Shown in pieces: positions 13,542 through 54,494 of a DNA stretch of 64,000 bases. The notes under the pieces are model-generated. The model was not told the DNA's origin. It saw only the letters and a program-made list of their open reading frames with translations, and searched no databases. This DNA comes from Hymenobacter negativus (lineage in GTDB: Bacteria; Bacteroidota; Bacteroidia; Cytophagales; Hymenobacteraceae). Position 1 is the first letter of the stretch, and every line of letters starts with the position of its first letter. The stretch lies in the NCBI RefSeq assembly GCF_017571495.1, contig NZ_JAGETZ010000011.1:124001-188000 (forward strand), in the 5' to 3' direction. Both the position numbers and the translations under genes were made by a program.

Positions 13542-14558
13542 ATGATTGTTAACATACATTCAAACGGAAAACATGCACTCAGACAGCGCTATTTTGTGAC
13601 CGGTGGTGCTGGTTTCATCGGCTCGAATGTGGTGGATGCTTTGCTGAGACAAGGGCACGAGGTCTATACGATTGACGACTTGAGCACAGGCTCTTTTGAG
13701 AACCTGACGGCCGCTAATCGGAGCAGGTATCATTATTTCTTTGAGCAAAACGTGCTCGATTTTGACTGGGACGGCTACCTGAAAGCCGGCGACCACATCA
13801 TTCACCTAGCCGCTGCTGTGGGGGTCGACTACGTAGCGAAGGACTCGCTATTCACCTCGCACAACAACTTAAACGTAACGCAGCACGTGCTGGAGAAATG
13901 CCGGCAGTACCGCTGCAGTCTGCTGTTTACCAGCACTTCGGAGGTTTATGGTAATCACGACCGGCATTTTTCTTCGGAAGACGACCATTTGTGTATGCAC
14001 GTTACCCATGGCGGCCGAAGTGCATATACATTATCTAAATTATATGGGGAATTCCTGTGTCAGGAATATGCTCAAAAATATCATTTGCAGATAACAGTAT
14101 TGCGGCTTTTTAATACGATAGGAAGCCGGCAGAGCAATAGTTTTGGCATGGTTGTGCCCCGCTTTATTCAGCATGCACTCCGAAATGAGTGCATTGCCGT
14201 GTACGGTGCGGGTGACCAGACCCGTTCTTTCTGCCATGTGTCGGATACAGTGCGGGCCATTTGCGAATTAAGCAAATCCAGCAGCAGCCGGGGCGAAATT
14301 TACAATGTGGGCAATGACGTATCCATTACGGTACTGGAGTTAGCGCAGTATATCAAGGACATTACAAACAGTTCTTCTGAAATTAAACTGAGCCCATTTC
14401 CCGAAGCAAGGCAAGGCGATAAGGATATCAAAAACCGTAAGCCGGATATTTCTAAAATTCTGAAGGATTTTGGCTGGCAGCCCGAGGTGAGTTGGCAGGA
14501 GGCAATATTCGAAATAGTAGAAAGTATGAAACAGCAAAACGTTATGAAATTTGCTTAA
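13542..14558 (+). CDS. NAD-dependent epimerase/dehydratase (extended SDR, nucleotide sugar)
   Basis: The 338-residue protein has the Rossmann motif GGAGFIGS (about residues 22-29) followed by an acidic IDDLSTG segment. It also has the active-site SEVYG stretch and the catalytic YTLSK (YxxxK), placing it among UDP-sugar 4-epimerases and 4,6-dehydratases. The substrate cannot be fixed from sequence. It starts a three-gene exopolysaccharide cluster; the deacetylase starts 7 bases after its stop. The DNA is clearly AT-richer than the flanking genes, suggesting acquisition. The N-terminal 20 residues before the Rossmann fold are longer than usual, so a later start is possible. Confidence 0.9.
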   Translation: MIVNIHSNGKHALRQRYFVTGGAGFIGSNVVDALLRQGHEVYTIDDLSTGSFENLTAANRSRYHYFFEQNVLDFDWDGYLKAGDHIIHLAAAVGVDYVAKDSLFTSHNNLNVTQHVLEKCRQYRCSLLFTSTSEVYGNHDRHFSSEDDHLCMHVTHGGRSAYTLSKLYGEFLCQEYAQKYHLQITVLRLFNTIGSRQSNSFGMVVPRFIQHALRNECIAVYGAGDQTRSFCHVSDTVRAICELSKSSSSRGEIYNVGNDVSITVLELAQYIKDITNSSSEIKLSPFPEARQGDKDIKNRKPDISKILKDFGWQPEVSWQEAIFEIVESMKQQNVMKFA

Positions 14559-14565
14559 TAATTTT

Positions 14566-15384
14566 ATGCACGCTTTCACAATCGACCTGGAAGAATGGTT
14601 CTGCACCCATAATTTTCAGGGAATTATTGCCTATGAAGATTGGGATAAGTTGGAATCAAGAATAGGTGGTCAAACCGAACAGCTTCTGGAACTGCTGGAT
14701 AAATACCATGTAAAAGCAACTTTCTTTGTGTTGGGCTGGGTAGCTGAAAGGCATCCGGAGCTACTGCAAAGTATTACCCGCGCCGGTCATGAAATTGGCT
14801 CGCACGGTTTCAGCCACCAACTTACCTGGCAGCACTCGCGGGAAAGCTTTAAGCAAGACCTAGCGCTTTCTACGGCAGCCATCCAAGCTGTTCTCGGTAG
14901 CCGGCCCACTGCTTTTCGGGCGCCTGCCTTTTCGGTTATTAAGCAGACGGATTGGGCAATTGATGTGCTAAAAGAGTCAGGATATGAAACAGATAGCTCT
15001 GTGTATCCGGTGTCGGTGCATCCGGAATATGGAATTGGGGATGCGCCGCTAGCTCCCTATCGGTGGGCCAACGGAATGGCGGAAATACCACTTTCCTGTG
15101 TGCAGTATTATAATAAACGGATTCCCATCAGCGGCGGCGCTTACTTCCGCTTTATGGCTTACCCACTGTACCGTAAGCTGGTAAAGCAACTGGAAAAGGA
15201 AGCGCGAAAATTAAATTTTTATATACATCCGTGGGAAATAGATGGCGACATTCCCAAAGTAAAAGGGTTGTCTTATCAGCGGCGTTTGCGGCACTACACG
15301 GGTTTAGCGCAGGTAAAACCCAAGCTGGAGAGAATCCTTGGTGATTTTGAGTTTACAACCTTGAGCAATGCTTTCCAATCCTGA
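14566..15384 (+). CDS. XrtA-type polysaccharide deacetylase (DUF3473)
   Basis: The 272-residue protein starts MHAFTIDLEEWF, contains the NodB-domain metal motifs (TIDLEEW; SHGFSHQ; FRAPAFS) and ends with the DUF3473-type IHPWEID segment. That combination is characteristic of the deacetylase found beside exosortase-type exopolysaccharide loci. It would remove acetyl groups from a polysaccharide or its lipid-linked precursor. The ATG at 14566 is preferred to an in-frame TTG at 14551, which lies inside the epimerase. Its 3' end overlaps the sugar transferase gene by 17 bases. No exosortase is present in this window. One sampled line (15181-15240) has only 20 G/C of 60. Confidence 0.9.
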   Translation: MHAFTIDLEEWFCTHNFQGIIAYEDWDKLESRIGGQTEQLLELLDKYHVKATFFVLGWVAERHPELLQSITRAGHEIGSHGFSHQLTWQHSRESFKQDLALSTAAIQAVLGSRPTAFRAPAFSVIKQTDWAIDVLKESGYETDSSVYPVSVHPEYGIGDAPLAPYRWANGMAEIPLSCVQYYNKRIPISGGAYFRFMAYPLYRKLVKQLEKEARKLNFYIHPWEIDGDIPKVKGLSYQRRLRHYTGLAQVKPKLERILGDFEFTTLSNAFQS

Positions 15385-16087
15385 TAGGTCCATCGTGTTA
15401 ACGTCTGCGCAGCAACGCTATCTGGTGTATAAAAACCTGTATGACGTTGGATTAGCTCTCGTGGTATTAGTACTATGCGCGCCATTACTACTGGTGCTAA
15501 TGGCTTGGGTTAAACTGGATAGCAGGGGAGGAGTATTTTATCTGCAAAAAAGACCGGGAAGAAATAACCGACTTTTTACGTTGATTAAATTCCGCAGCAT
15601 GACGGTTCCTGAAGAAGGCGATGCATTTTTACTTACGCAAGCAAATGATGCCCGCCTGACAACAGCCGGGAAATGGTTGAGAAAACTGCATATGGATGAA
15701 TTGCCACAGCTTATTAATGTTTTGCTGGGCCATATGAGCCTGGTTGGACCTCGCCCATTGCCTGAACCACTTTACGCAGCATATCAACAAGCTATTCCTG
15801 ATTATAACCTGCGCCATGTTATAAAGCCAGGGATAACGGGGTTTGCGCAAATTTGGCAGGGCTATACCAATACAATGGAAGAAGAAACGCTAAAATGGAA
15901 ATACGATATGTATTATATCCAGCGTATTTCTCTGAAAAACGATTTAATGATTTTGAGAGAAACTATCTTCGGTAAGCGTTCCAGAAATATTGCCGAGCGG
16001 GAAGCGCAGCGAAAAATAGTTATTGCGAATAACAGTCCGGAAATAACAGCGCAAAGCCAGCGCATAAAAATTACGGCCCTTGGCTGA
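15368..16087 (+). CDS. Priming sugar transferase (undecaprenyl-phosphate phosphoglycosyltransferase)
   Basis: This is a 239-residue, single-domain bacterial sugar transferase. One hydrophobic segment (about residues 28-48) anchors it in the membrane. The signature segments KFRSM, MDELPQLINVLLGHMSLVGP and KPGITGFAQIWQGYT are present. Such monotopic enzymes transfer a sugar phosphate to undecaprenyl phosphate and start exopolysaccharide assembly. It lacks the large N-terminal membrane region of WbaP/WcaJ, which is normal for short PglC-like forms. Its start overlaps the deacetylase gene, so the three genes form one unit. No flippase, polymerase or further glycosyltransferase follows, so the pathway is completed elsewhere or incomplete. 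Confidence 0.92.
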   Translation: MLSNPDRSIVLTSAQQRYLVYKNLYDVGLALVVLVLCAPLLLVLMAWVKLDSRGGVFYLQKRPGRNNRLFTLIKFRSMTVPEEGDAFLLTQANDARLTTAGKWLRKLHMDELPQLINVLLGHMSLVGPRPLPEPLYAAYQQAIPDYNLRHVIKPGITGFAQIWQGYTNTMEEETLKWKYDMYYIQRISLKNDLMILRETIFGKRSRNIAEREAQRKIVIANNSPEITAQSQRIKITALG

Positions 16088-49006: not shown

Positions 49007-49615
49007 ATGCAAGGCCTATTGCCCATTTTATTTGCTTCTATAGCCGGAATGGGCCATGCATTTGAACCCGACCACCTGTTAGCTGTGGGTAATCTCATTT
49101 CCCGCCGCGATACGTTGGCCCAAGCCCTGCGCGATGGCATCTATTGGGGCTTGGGCCATACCACCACGCTGGTAGTCGTGGGCAGCATCATCCTCTTGGG
49201 CCGTGTCACCTTTCTCACGTCTGGTTACTTCGAAGCCGCTGTAGGTTTGATGCTCATCGTCATGGGTATCAGCCGCCTGCTTGACCAGCGCCGTGAAGCC
49301 GCCAAGGTGCGCCCCGGTGTGGCGCCATCCCGCGCCGCTTACGCCGTGGGGCTGCTCCACGGCCTGGCCGGCAGCGGTGCGCTGGTGCTGCTGGTGATGA
49401 GTGAAATCCGCGACCCGTGGCTGAGTGTGCTCTACTTTATGGTGTTTGGTATCGGTTCCATCCTGGGCATGTTCATCGTGGCCGTGCTGTGTAGCGTGCC
49501 ATTCACGAAGCGCATGAAAATCAGCCGGATATTGAAGGCCAGCACTGTCACTTTATCCTCGCTGCTGTGCATCGGCTACGGCGGCTGGATGATTTATGGG
49601 AATGTGCGATGGTGA
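49007..49615 (+). CDS. NicO/UreH-type nickel permease
   Basis: The 202-residue protein has about six hydrophobic segments and the nickel/cobalt transporter signature HX4DH in its first helix (MGHAFEPDHLLAVGN, about residues 15-29). A second conserved GLGHTTTLVVVG segment and a late GLLHGLAGSGALVLLV repeat of the motif are also present. Because it directly precedes the urease genes, nickel supply for urease is the likely role. It is one of the short UreH-like forms rather than the eight-helix NiCoT type. It lies between two copies of a composite repeat. Confidence 0.88.
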   Translation: MQGLLPILFASIAGMGHAFEPDHLLAVGNLISRRDTLAQALRDGIYWGLGHTTTLVVVGSIILLGRVTFLTSGYFEAAVGLMLIVMGISRLLDQRREAAKVRPGVAPSRAAYAVGLLHGLAGSGALVLLVMSEIRDPWLSVLYFMVFGIGSILGMFIVAVLCSVPFTKRMKISRILKASTVTLSSLLCIGYGGWMIYGNVRW

Positions 49616-49630
49616 AATCGTGCTCCCGTC

Positions 49631-49791
49631 AACCTCACCCCCTGACCCCCTCTCCCGCGGAGAGGGGGCACCGGTTATGCTTCACTTGTGAATCGTCAGG
49701 CTCCCCTCTCCGCGGGAGAGGGGCCGGGGTGAGGTTCCTTGCGTCAGGCAACGCGGGCGAGATGCCTCGGCTACGCTCGGTATGACGTTCT
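49631..49791 (+). repeat. Right copy of the composite direct repeat (intact hairpin plus REP-like arm)
   Basis: The first part, 49631-49738, is a long inverted repeat: AACCTCACCCCCTGACCCCC with CTCTCCCGCGGAGAG facing CTCTCCGCGGGAGAGGGG and GGGGTGAGGTTCC. The second part (49753-49791) is one arm of the TCATnCTGAGCG family in reverse (GCGAGATGCCTCGGCTACGC). Confidence 0.8.
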
Positions 49792-49816: not shown

Positions 49817-50551
49817 ATGCACCTCGCCCCCAAAGACCTCGACAAGCTCATCCTCCACCAGGCCGGTTTCGTGGCGCAGAAGCGCTTCGCCCGTGGTCTG
49901 CTCCTGAACTACCCCGAAGCCCTGGCCCTCATCGCCACGCAGCTGCTGGAGTTCATCCGCGACGGCGAGCGGGTGGCCGTGCTCATGGACAAGGGCAAGC
50001 AACTGCTGGGCCTGGCCGACGTGCTGCCCGGCGTGGCCGACCTGCTCCACGAAGTCCAAATCGAAGGCACCTTCCCCGACGGCACCAAGCTCGTGACCGT
50101 GCACCACCCCATCTGCCGCGAAACCGGCGATGCCGCGCTGGCCCTCTACGGCTCCGGCCTGACCCGCGCCACCGCCCCGGCCGCCGCGCCCGCCAGCCCC
50201 CCGCCGCCCGGCGAATACCTGCTGGCCGACGGCGACATCATCCTCAACGAAACCCGCGCCACGGTGACGGTAGACGTCGTGAACATGGGCGACCGGCCCG
50301 TGCAGGTCGGCTCGCACTACCCCTTTTTCGAAACCAACGCCGCGCTGCACTTCGACCGCGCGGCGGCCTACGGGTTCCGCCTCAACATCCCGGCCGGCAC
50401 GGCAGTACGCTTCGAGCCCGGCGAACGCAAGCGCGTGACCTTAGTGGCCCTCAGCGGCGAGCGCATCGTGTACGGCGGCAATGGCTGGATTGATGGCCCG
50501 CTGGATGAGGCTGGAAAGAAGCAGCAGGCGCTGGAGAAACTAGAGTTATAG
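49817..50551 (+). CDS. ureAB: Fused urease gamma-beta subunit (UreA-UreB)
   Basis: The 244-residue protein joins the gamma subunit (residues 1-100: [40 protein letters not shown]) to the beta subunit (about 130-240: [60 protein letters not shown]) through a Pro/Ala linker ([15 protein letters not shown]). Gamma-beta fusions are known in several bacteria, such as the Helicobacter UreA. Together with UreC it forms the nickel urease that splits urea into ammonia and carbamate. The gene order is broken after it by an AT-rich orphan gene. Confidence 0.95.
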
Positions 50552-50595
50552 TAGTTTTAGAAAGTAATAGGTCTCTGTCGTAAACCAGATTCGAT

Positions 50596-51117
50596 ATGTA
50601 TCAGCCGACTGAAAACTTCAACTTTGGTATGTATCAAGGTATGCCCATATGGACTGTGGCATTATGTGACCCAAGCTACATAAAGTGGTGTATTAAAACC
50701 GTTGAGAGTTTTGCTATAGATGGCTTTGATGAATTGCGACAATTACCATTGTTTGATGTTGATAGAGCAGATTCGTTTGAAGGAACATGCCTTTTATCCA
50801 AGCTTCATGCTGAAATGGATAAAGAACCAGCTAGATATAAATGCAGCTTGCCCGGCTCGTTTGAGATGACAGCTTACTTAAAGGATAAGGGTTATGAATT
50901 TTATCTAGAGTTTTTTAAGCCATATATGATAAGACGATACGAATATGATGAGTCAATTATTGAATTAAATGAAAGTCGTTTAAAGGCGCAGAAAAACCGA
51001 AATGCATCTCAGGATTTACCATATGATACATGGGAACCAAGTGAGAAATACACATTTGATGATACAATAAATGATGCATTCGAAGGTGATTCCAGTAACT
51101 ACTGGAACATTGATTAA
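50596..51117 (+). CDS. AT-rich orphan with ExoX-like C-terminal domain, between ureAB and ureC
   Basis: The 173-residue protein opens with NFNFGMYQGMPIWTVALCDPSYIKWCIKTVE. This resembles the small domain found at the C-terminus of exodeoxyribonuclease X-type proteins (pattern FGxYxGxxxxxVxxxDPxYIxW), usually taken as a nucleic-acid- or protein-binding module. The rest is acidic and unrecognised (EFYLEFFKPYMIRRYEYDES). No nuclease domain is present. One sampled line (50701-50760) has 21 G/C of 60, against 35 of 60 in ureC (51901-51960), so the gene is probably acquired. It sits in the urease operon in the same orientation, 44 bases after ureAB and 51 before ureC. Confidence 0.75.
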   Translation: MYQPTENFNFGMYQGMPIWTVALCDPSYIKWCIKTVESFAIDGFDELRQLPLFDVDRADSFEGTCLLSKLHAEMDKEPARYKCSLPGSFEMTAYLKDKGYEFYLEFFKPYMIRRYEYDESIIELNESRLKAQKNRNASQDLPYDTWEPSEKYTFDDTINDAFEGDSSNYWNID

Positions 51118-51168
51118 TTCCGCTTTTCAAAGCTGAAAATTCGAAAGCAAACGAAATCACTGCTCAAC

Positions 51169-52883
<1,715 letters not shown>

Positions 52884-52884
<1 letters not shown>

Positions 52885-52990: not shown

Positions 52991-53662
52991 ATGCACTTCG
53001 CCCGCCTCCTGCACCTCGTCGATTCGGCTATTCCCACCGGCTCGTTCGCCTATTCCTACGGGTTGGAAAGTAGCCTCACCTTCGGGCTGGTGAACACGCC
53101 ATTCGACTTGCGCAACCACCTGTATTCCTACCTGCAGCAAGCCGGCAGCGCCGAATTGCCCTTCATCCATTCCACCTTCCATCTCACCGAGAAAAGCCCC
53201 GAATTTCAAACCATCGCCGAAGAATACGACGCCCAACTGCTAGTGCCTGCGCTCTACAAAGCCAGCGCCGTGCAGGGCCGCAACTGGCTGAAGCTGCTCG
53301 CCACCTTCTATCCCGAAGCTGCTTTGGAAACCATTACGCAATGGTTCGAAACCCGGCAGATTCCCCCGCATTTCACGCTGGTTTTCACGCTGGCCTTGCA
53401 GCGGGTCGGCTTTGGATTGGAGGAGTTGCAAGCCATGTACCTGCACATGCTGCTGCGCGACCAGCTCAGCGCCGCCATTCGCCTTGGGTTTCTGGGGCCG
53501 CTGGAGGGGCACCAGTTGCAGCACGATTTCTACGCGGTGTTCGAGCATATTCTGGCGGCGCAGGAAGGAAAGGGGTATGGCGAGGCTACCCGTTCTGCCT
53601 TCTTGCTGGATGCAGCCCAGGTGCTGCACGAAGACATTTATTCCAAGCTTTTCCAGAACTAA
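52991..53662 (+). CDS. ureF: Urease accessory protein UreF
   Basis: The 223-residue, mostly helical cytosolic protein has the UreF signature near its start (LLHLVDSAIPTGSFAYSYGLES), then the long helices containing ELPFIHSTFHL, and the late LQHDFYAVFEHILAA and RSAFLLDAAQVLHEDIYSKLFQN segments. UreF bridges UreD and UreG in the complex that delivers nickel to apo-urease and gates GTP hydrolysis. It follows ureC after a long hairpin and precedes ureG after another, so the three genes are probably on one transcript. Confidence 0.93.
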   Translation: MHFARLLHLVDSAIPTGSFAYSYGLESSLTFGLVNTPFDLRNHLYSYLQQAGSAELPFIHSTFHLTEKSPEFQTIAEEYDAQLLVPALYKASAVQGRNWLKLLATFYPEAALETITQWFETRQIPPHFTLVFTLALQRVGFGLEELQAMYLHMLLRDQLSAAIRLGFLGPLEGHQLQHDFYAVFEHILAAQEGKGYGEATRSAFLLDAAQVLHEDIYSKLFQN

Positions 53663-53741: not shown

Positions 53742-54494
53742 ATGGCTTTTGTCGAAAAACTCGCCCTTCTGCTCCACGGTCACCAGCACGAAGCCTACGA
53801 ATCCCCAGGGGACTTCAACGAGCGTGAAACCCGACGCTTGCCCAGCTACCGCAACTTCCGCAAGCGTGCCTTCACCGTGGGCATTGGCGGGCCGGTGGGC
53901 ACGGGCAAAACCGCGCTACTCAAAGCCCTGTGCGAGCGAATGCGCCACGAGTTCGAGTTGGGCGTGGTCACTAACGACATTTTCACCCGCGAAGACGCCG
54001 AGTTTCTCATCCGCAACAGTGCGCTGGATGAAAACCGCATCGTGGGCGTCGAAACCGGCGGCTGCCCACACGCTGCCATCCGCGAGGATATTTCTCTGAA
54101 CATGGACGCGCTCGAAGGCCTCATGCAGCGCTTCGACTACGGCTTGGATTACCTCTTTGTGGAGAGCGGCGGCGACAACCTGGCCGCCCACTTCAGCCGC
54201 GAGCTGGTCGACTATTCCATCTACGTCATCGACGTATCGGGCGGCGATAAAATCCCGCGCAAGGGCGGACCCGGTATCACTCAATCGGACCTGCTCATTA
54301 TCAACAAAATCGACCTCAAAGACCTCATCAAGGCCGACCTCGGCGTGATGGAGCGCGACTCGAAAAAGATGCGCGGCGAAGGCCCGTTCCTGTTTGCCCG
54401 CGCCATCGACGGGCATGGGCTAGATGATATTATCTCGCACATCAAAGCCGCTAAGGCGCGGGCGCTAGCCGCCGTGCGCGAGGACCGGCGGTAG
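53742..54494 (+). CDS. ureG: Urease accessory GTPase UreG
   Basis: This 250-residue GTPase has P-loop GPVGTGKT (residues 50-57), the nickel-binding CPH motif within [15 protein letters not shown] (Cys108, His110), the VESGGDN switch region and the NKIDLKDL base motif. It is about 40 residues longer than common UreG proteins, from an N-terminal extension that includes HGHQHEAYE and could bind metal. UreG dimers carry nickel to the UreF-UreD complex. Because no ureE is visible, the His-containing extension may matter. It ends before a small hairpin convergent with the LytTR gene. Confidence 0.95.

Follow-up and report, generated by a model that had tools for sequence, protein, structure and literature searches.

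A probable slot for exchangeable cargo genes at the ureAB-ureC junction of Hymenobacter

RESULTS

An AT-rich gene separates ureAB from ureC in Hymenobacter negativus

Positions 124,001 to 188,000 of contig NZ_JAGETZ010000011.1 of Hymenobacter negativus (GCF_017571495.1), a stretch of 64,000 nucleotides hereafter called the window, carry a urease operon in which a small gene lies between the structural genes. This gene, an open reading frame (ORF) of 173 codons (50596-51117, + strand) referred to as cargo, is flanked by ureAB (49817-50551, +), which encodes the fused gamma and beta subunits and matches NCBIfam PRK13192 above its cut-off, and by ureC (51169-52884, +). The left spacer, between the ureAB stop codon and the first codon of the cargo gene, measures 44 bp (50552-50595, +), and the right one, ending at the ureC ATG, measures 51 bp (51118-51168, +). 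The GC content of the cargo gene equals 36.4%, and 32% at third codon positions, which is low in comparison to ureAB (68.0% and 88%) and ureC (64.3% and 86%). This confirms the initial annotation, made from the letters of the window, which had described an AT-rich gene splitting ureAB from ureC in the same orientation. The gene is probably the current occupant of a hypervariable slot that extends across the genus and usually holds a different small AT-rich gene in each relative.

The encoded protein has a computed isoelectric point of 4.5, and a simple rule detects no hydrophobic segment in it. It is an acidic, soluble orphan, for which involvement in defense or in nucleic acid interaction would be a guess. 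The initial annotation had labeled it ExoX-C-like and considered it a possible antiphage gene. The Pfam model ExoX-like_C (PF20600) matches residues 8 to 34 with 23.5 bits (E value, 3.5e-5), short of the gathering cut-off of 26.5, and the NCBIfam ExoX model matches residues 6 to 40 with 20.9 bits against a cut-off of 202. The shared 27-residue motif is N-terminal and does not follow an exonuclease domain, none being found in the protein by the Pfam scan. The profile search of the remaining 130 or so residues, which the initial annotation had proposed, gave no match in Pfam, NCBIfam, or PADLOC; in PADLOC, the whole protein had no match up to an E value of 1. PHROG returned a single match (E value, 0.14), and a phage collection returned one match of 41 residues (E value, 0.05). 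No relative was found in the 119 other genomes of the genus or in the viral contigs, plasmids, and genome contigs scanned. Among 395 genomes of the phylum, the sole other match covers 36 residues (E value, 2.5e-4), and none is full-length. A single-sequence structure model was too poor to use, with a mean predicted local distance difference test (pLDDT) score of 37.5.

The cargo gene would be read from the urease operon: because it lies on the same strand with short spacers and the gap contains no terminator-like site, co-transcription with the urease genes is predicted. A Bacteroidetes-type promoter consensus had no match in the window, a result that is uninformative.

The ureAB-ureC junction is occupied across the genus

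The junction was compared across 120 Hymenobacter genomes, one genome per species. ureC was found in 76 of them, the window's own included, and 72 of the 75 sister urease loci were taken; G095, G099, and G108 (our handles for genomes; L numbers denote loci) were left out for a partial ureC match, and G095 was read later. Of the 73 loci examined, window included, 71 had a measurable junction, defined as the length from complete ureAB to ureC, and the other two are cut short by a contig end. G078, whose urease is 65% identical and whose gap is 0, was set aside, leaving 70 genomes for the junction counts. Junctions of at least 400 bp were considered enlarged, and ORFs of at least 80 amino acids were counted as cargo.

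The junction reaches 400 bp or more in 64 of the 70 genomes (median, 577.5 bp; range, 43 to 2828 bp) and contains a cargo ORF in 63, or in 62 of 69 when the window genome is not counted. Seven slots were counted empty, including that of G005, where a decayed copy remains. In all 70 genomes the slot is bordered by ureAB and ureC, and the urease genes remain open. The GC content of the gap, taken to the nearest ureB piece, lies below 0.50 in 69 of the 70 (range, 0.27 to 0.52). Single-linkage clustering sorted the slot ORFs into 42 groups, one of them transposases, leaving about 41 unrelated cargo groups, a few short ORFs being possibly spurious. Orientation mostly follows the operon, with the cargo inverted in at least two genomes (G043 and G103). 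In most genomes, the right spacer differs in sequence up to the ureC ATG, and the last codons of ureAB vary between many genomes. A Pfam scan of 43 cargo representatives, with 25 of 26 families listed, revealed only transposases as mobility genes, in two members (G092 and G082).

The initial annotation had noticed a real anomaly and read it as a single event, and its suggested comparison of sister species shows otherwise: in most sisters the same junction is filled by another gene. The window gene itself occurs in one of the 120 genomes and is not shared at this place across the genus. The description of it as a foreign gene stands insofar as it looks foreign, has the operon's orientation and short spacers, and lacks a match in the other 119 genomes, and fails insofar as it supposed a singular insertion. 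The initial interpretation is partly supported, and the object of interest is the slot more than the gene. No published account of this junction was found in the literature searched, mostly without subscription papers.

Other junctions and other genera

The contiguity of urease structural genes, which the initial annotation had given as the norm, was borne out by 74 loci from outside Hymenobacter, in which the median ureB-ureC gap is 7.5 bp. These derive from 76 loci taken, two of which had no ureB match; in three of the 74 the genes are ordered differently. Since the gaps in these loci are mostly tiny, a gene between ureB and ureC is unusual. Six exceed 300 bp (L193, L203, L209, L211, L224, and L232).

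Within the same family, genus group g5 carries cargo in all three of its loci. In groups g3 (eight loci) and g6 (four loci), which have the same urease type, there is a spacer of 50 to 279 bp with no ORF of 80 amino acids, although one of these twelve loci could be read only in part. For five divergent ureases of the family, the gap is 0 or 143 bp. Because g5 has cargo and g3 and g6 only short spacers, the slot seems to have arisen close to the base of the Hymenobacter group.

Junctions further along the operon served as internal controls. Between ureF (52991-53662, +) and ureG (53742-54494, +), only one of 61 loci reaches at least 400 bp; the junction between ureC and ureF, the latter not found downstream in nine of 71 loci, does so in nine of 62 and is considered further in the Discussion. 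At gltB-gltD, the genes of another two-subunit enzyme, four of 30 loci (the best 30 of 89 matching genomes) reach at least 400 bp, all four with one ORF type, which may be GIY-YIG-like. Each of the three control junctions is enlarged less frequently than that between ureAB and ureC. Small recurrent ORFs were seen in both the gltB-gltD and ureC-ureF junctions (L266, L276, L278, and L280, with L051, L076, and L082); presumably, these are nucleases of the GIY-YIG and DUF559 types.

Cargo turnover on the ureC tree

To follow the cargo along host descent, a ureC tree of 70 rows was built by a quick method, omitting the first 150 nucleotides of the gene. Cargo families are scattered over this tree: family A2 requires eight changes for eight rows, A4 seven for seven, and A3 six for six. 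All 37 cargo states together require 52 changes, the minimum possible being 36, and the sisters G071 and G072, joined with a support of 100, carry different cargo.

Synonymous divergence (pS) was compared in 91 same-family pairs, with G014, G092, G082, and G078 omitted. G053 and G041 differ at ureC by a pS of 0.145 and at their same-family cargo by 0.756, a difference that is hard to read as the descent of one allele, even if codon bias may slow ureC. The cargo pool looks old and reshuffled. In addition, the flank ends deviate locally: ureB tails differ among many genomes, and G110 departs from its clade in ureC nucleotides 1 to 91.

Cargo families and their functions

Three recurrent families are found mainly in the slot. 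Profile searches of the 120 genomes gave seven matches for A3, all seven in the slot; nine for A4, eight of them in the slot; and 15 for A2, of which ten are slot genes, three adjoin dnaK, and two lie at other sites. For the three families together, 25 of 31 matches are in the slot. The A2 relatives adjoining dnaK (L141, L142, and L144, in G043, G103, and G096) suggest that the family may have a second location. The slot-specificity searches covered one further cargo, a RelA/SpoT-like protein (PADLOC PDC-S33), which has relatives of at least 79% identity in G078 and G092, at a relic or slot, and one of 41% identity in G076.

In function the cargo pool is mixed, with a few defense-like members, some lipoproteins and membrane proteins, and most groups without an assigned function. 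Other annotated cargo includes NACHT, DUF4238, Endonuc_Holl, DnaJ, and DUF2971 (PDC-S31) proteins. At E values up to 0.01, PADLOC, which is blind to defense genes of new kinds, matched four of the 43 representatives: L061, L051, L083, and a Cas8b match (E value, 3.7e-4). Crude motif rules, which mislabel some members, classify the 41 groups as 26 soluble, six with a lipobox-like start, four with an N-terminal hydrophobic segment, and five with other transmembrane segments. A structure model of A2 built from 14 rows (pLDDT, 87.8) consists of two N-terminal helices and one domain. A thioredoxin-like fold was read from this model; the best Foldseek match had an E value of 0.06 and the TM-scores stayed below 0.5, and the fold is not claimed.

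The ratio of nonsynonymous to synonymous divergence (dN/dS) was estimated for the closest pair of 12 recurrent families. It lies between 0.06 and 0.24 in eight, rough values given that dS is often above 1, and equals 0 in one. On these ratios, most recurrent cargo appears to consist of constrained proteins, mostly under purifying selection. The mean GC content of singletons (0.360, n = 28) is lower than that of members of families of three or more (0.403, n = 30; Mann-Whitney P = 0.018), which is in line with slow amelioration.

Doubled slots with a HicB-like gene

In eight genomes (G064, G018, G011, G077, G057, G083, G073, and G095), the slot is enlarged to the order HicB-like gene, ureB 3' fragment, cargo, ureC (L037, L059, L061, L062, L083, and L086 in the first six; L136, L242, and L260 in G073; L259 in G095). 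Six of these arrays have further cargo ahead, and in G018 and G057 hicA directly follows ureAB. The displaced 5' part of ureC, corresponding to about the first 91 nucleotides of the gene in the window, ends at nucleotides 88 to 91 in five genomes (G064, G073, G077, G083, and G095), and the ureB fragment begins at nucleotides 592 to 600 in most arrays, the exceptions being G064 and one of the G095 copies, where it begins at nucleotide 540. Scars of ureC also occur without hicAB, in G116 and G106. The G095 array contains an extra ureB fragment and an ORF resembling PIN proteins (PF13470, 17.5 bits, under the cut-off).

The HicB-like protein matches HTH_31 with 28.7 bits against a cut-off of 27 and falls just under the cut-off for HTH_3; we take it to be HicB from gene order. 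Its identity is 94% or more among ten genomes, namely those of the eight operon copies and G021 and G078. By reading, hicB is preceded by a HicA frame in G064, G018, G073, G057, and G083, which make up five of the eight operon copies, and in both G021 and G078, whereas none was found on reading the arrays of G011, G077, and G095. The only HicA scored, that of G078, reaches 45.7 bits for PF07927 against a cut-off of 27.

In G021 (L257) and G078 (L258), hicAB and an open cargo frame precede a decayed ureC. A movement of hicAB to non-urease sites was considered for these two genomes and rejected, the decayed ureC running past nucleotide 93 by eye. Because the decayed gene continues past nucleotides 91 to 93 or so, these copies are more plausibly relics of lost urease operons, in which hicAB and the cargo appear to have outlived the operon. 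Between hosts, hicB nucleotide divergence roughly tracks that of ureC (the G073 ureC was omitted), so a single old hicAB event followed by several losses is more probable than a unit that is moving at present. HicAB as the driver of recent cargo spread is weakened by this pattern and by the three copies in which a HicA frame was not found; those same three copies (G011, G077, and G095) disfavor addiction as the general role of hicAB.

DISCUSSION

Proposed exchange of the slot content and its alternatives

Our preferred reading, to which we assign a probability of roughly 0.7, is that Hymenobacter and the sister group g5 possess a cargo slot between ureAB and ureC whose content is swapped via homologous recombination in the flanks. 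The flanks are the same, the differences between genomes comprise whole genes, the cargo is scattered on the ureC tree, mobility genes are few, and scars of both flanks are present. The route of the swap is our inference from these patterns. The conserved urease genes on either side would act as homology arms, and DNA from another strain or species would recombine in ureB and ureC, replacing the whole intervening gene with no need for a mobility gene of its own. The occupant would then be expressed from the urease operon. Occasional recombination could enlarge the slot, leaving the ureC 5' and ureB 3' fragments, and the HicB-like gene seen at enlarged slots may, as a guess at its role, hinder collapse of the repeat. 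A more ambitious version remains doubtful. It holds that the junction is a dedicated locus for integrase-free cassette swapping, with a long-lived cargo pool whose alleles predate the host species. Selection would act on these alleles as they are reshuffled genus-wide, the urease promoter would drive their expression, and an addictive HicAB would keep the slot in its doubled form in some lineages.

Several observations weigh against exchange through the flanks. There is slight phylogenetic clustering, with 26 changes for 11 grouped states compared to a shuffled mean of 31.6, and only one of 200 shuffles gave as few as 26. Cargo is less diverged than ureC at synonymous sites in only four of the 91 same-family pairs, on which ground recent transfer between species was rejected; most shared cargo would thus consist of old divergent alleles. 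The ureB tails of the G050-G062 clade are mostly alike despite differing cargo. The ureC-ureF junction also reaches at least 400 bp in nine of 62 loci; among the seven of these whose content was read, one ORF family recurs in three and a lipoprotein-like ORF in two. Among the recurrent families, one has a dN/dS of 0.44 and two are saturated, and the window gene has no relatives for such a comparison. Finally, the sample comprises one genome per species, and exchange between strains would be an extrapolation from it.

The alternatives differ in how much of this they explain. The chance insertion of a lone foreign gene into this strain's urease operon would fit the strong AT richness of the window gene and its presence in a single genome of 120, but as a full account it is refuted by the ORFs at the same junction in 62 of 69 other genomes and is now very improbable. 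If the cargo consisted of urease accessory or regulatory proteins, its position within the operon and its usual orientation along it would be natural; about 41 unrelated groups, the seven of 70 genomes without cargo, the inverted copies in G043 and G103, and the open cargo frames persisting with hicAB beside a decayed ureC in G021 and G078 leave this explanation with hardly any credibility. Neutral AT-rich passengers tolerated by a permissive spacer, a possibility that the initial annotation had raised for the window gene, would account for the AT-rich orphans, the insertion sequence transposases in the G092 and G082 slots, and the decayed copy in G005. The long open frames and the low dN/dS in eight of the 12 recurrent families make it quite unlikely; the window orphan, which offers no such comparison, could still differ from most recurrent families.

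Two further explanations address the history of the slot. An ancestral array of several genes between ureB and ureC, followed by differential loss without exchange between species, is consistent with the existence of two-cargo slots and with a cargo divergence that usually exceeds that of ureC. However, the ancestor would need about a dozen recurrent families, when the genomes read hold one to three, and the gap between ureC and cargo divergence in G053 and G041 also opposes it; we judge it rather improbable. A site-specific mobile unit, comprising hicAB, the ureB 3' end, cargo, and the ureC 5' end and entering ureC near nucleotide 91 with a recombinase acting in trans, would explain the narrow range of the ureC and ureB fragment ends and the high identity of HicB in ten genomes. 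Yet no recombinase lies in the hicAB arrays, hicAB occurs in only eight urease-bearing genomes, the divergence of hicB fits one old event, and the G021 and G078 copies run into decayed ureC in a relic-like manner, so that such a unit is unlikely.

Relation to known systems

A comparable arrangement is the minimal mobile element of Neisseria, reportedly described by Saunders and Snyder in 2002. In one account, it is a conserved gene pair with differing whole-gene cassettes between, incorporated by homologous recombination (PMC3082526). The Hymenobacter slot likewise has two conserved flanks, differing whole-gene cassettes (about 41 groups in 63 occupied slots), and hardly any mobility genes. 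It differs in that the flanks encode subunits of one enzyme, that the range is genus-wide (about 41 groups in 70 genomes), that three recurrent families are located mainly in the slot, and that some slots are enlarged and carry a HicB-like gene. In Hymenobacter, recombination may underlie the discordant cargo and ureC histories and some mosaic-looking flank ends.

Horizontal gene transfer hotspots between core genes show fast gene turnover, often without mobile elements, and recombination at the flanks (Oliveira et al. 2017, PMC5635113). The same paper reports gene entry into operons as rare. Unlike those hotspots, the Hymenobacter spot lies inside a structural operon and usually holds one gene; the likeness is one of description and not of their threshold. 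The core defense hotspots of Pseudomonas aeruginosa share conserved flanks and a variable content that includes defense genes, but are islands with median lengths of 26 and 6 kb (PMC10250203), whereas the Hymenobacter slot usually has one gene and few defense-like groups.

In most of the Hymenobacter species examined, a catalytic operon is split at one and the same junction, and the gene that splits it usually differs, with the urease genes left open. With dozens of single-gene cargos at one site between common flanks, the slot offers a natural set for studying slot formation, integrase-free swapping, and cargo functions. Some cargo matches candidate defense families, making the slot a place to seek new single-gene defenses.

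Other features of the window

The gene order at the locus is NicO-like transporter, ureAB, cargo, ureC, ureF, and ureG. The first of these, a NicO/UreJ-like nickel transporter gene upstream of ureAB (49007-49615, +), has two Pfam matches, both slightly under the cut-off. Between it and ureAB, a GC-rich palindromic repeat, of a type that often occurs in dispersed copies, was seen by eye (49625-49740). Elsewhere in the window, positions 13542-16087 hold an AT-rich block of three genes with about 46% GC, whose translations read as sugar epimerase-, polysaccharide deacetylase-, and sugar transferase-like proteins.
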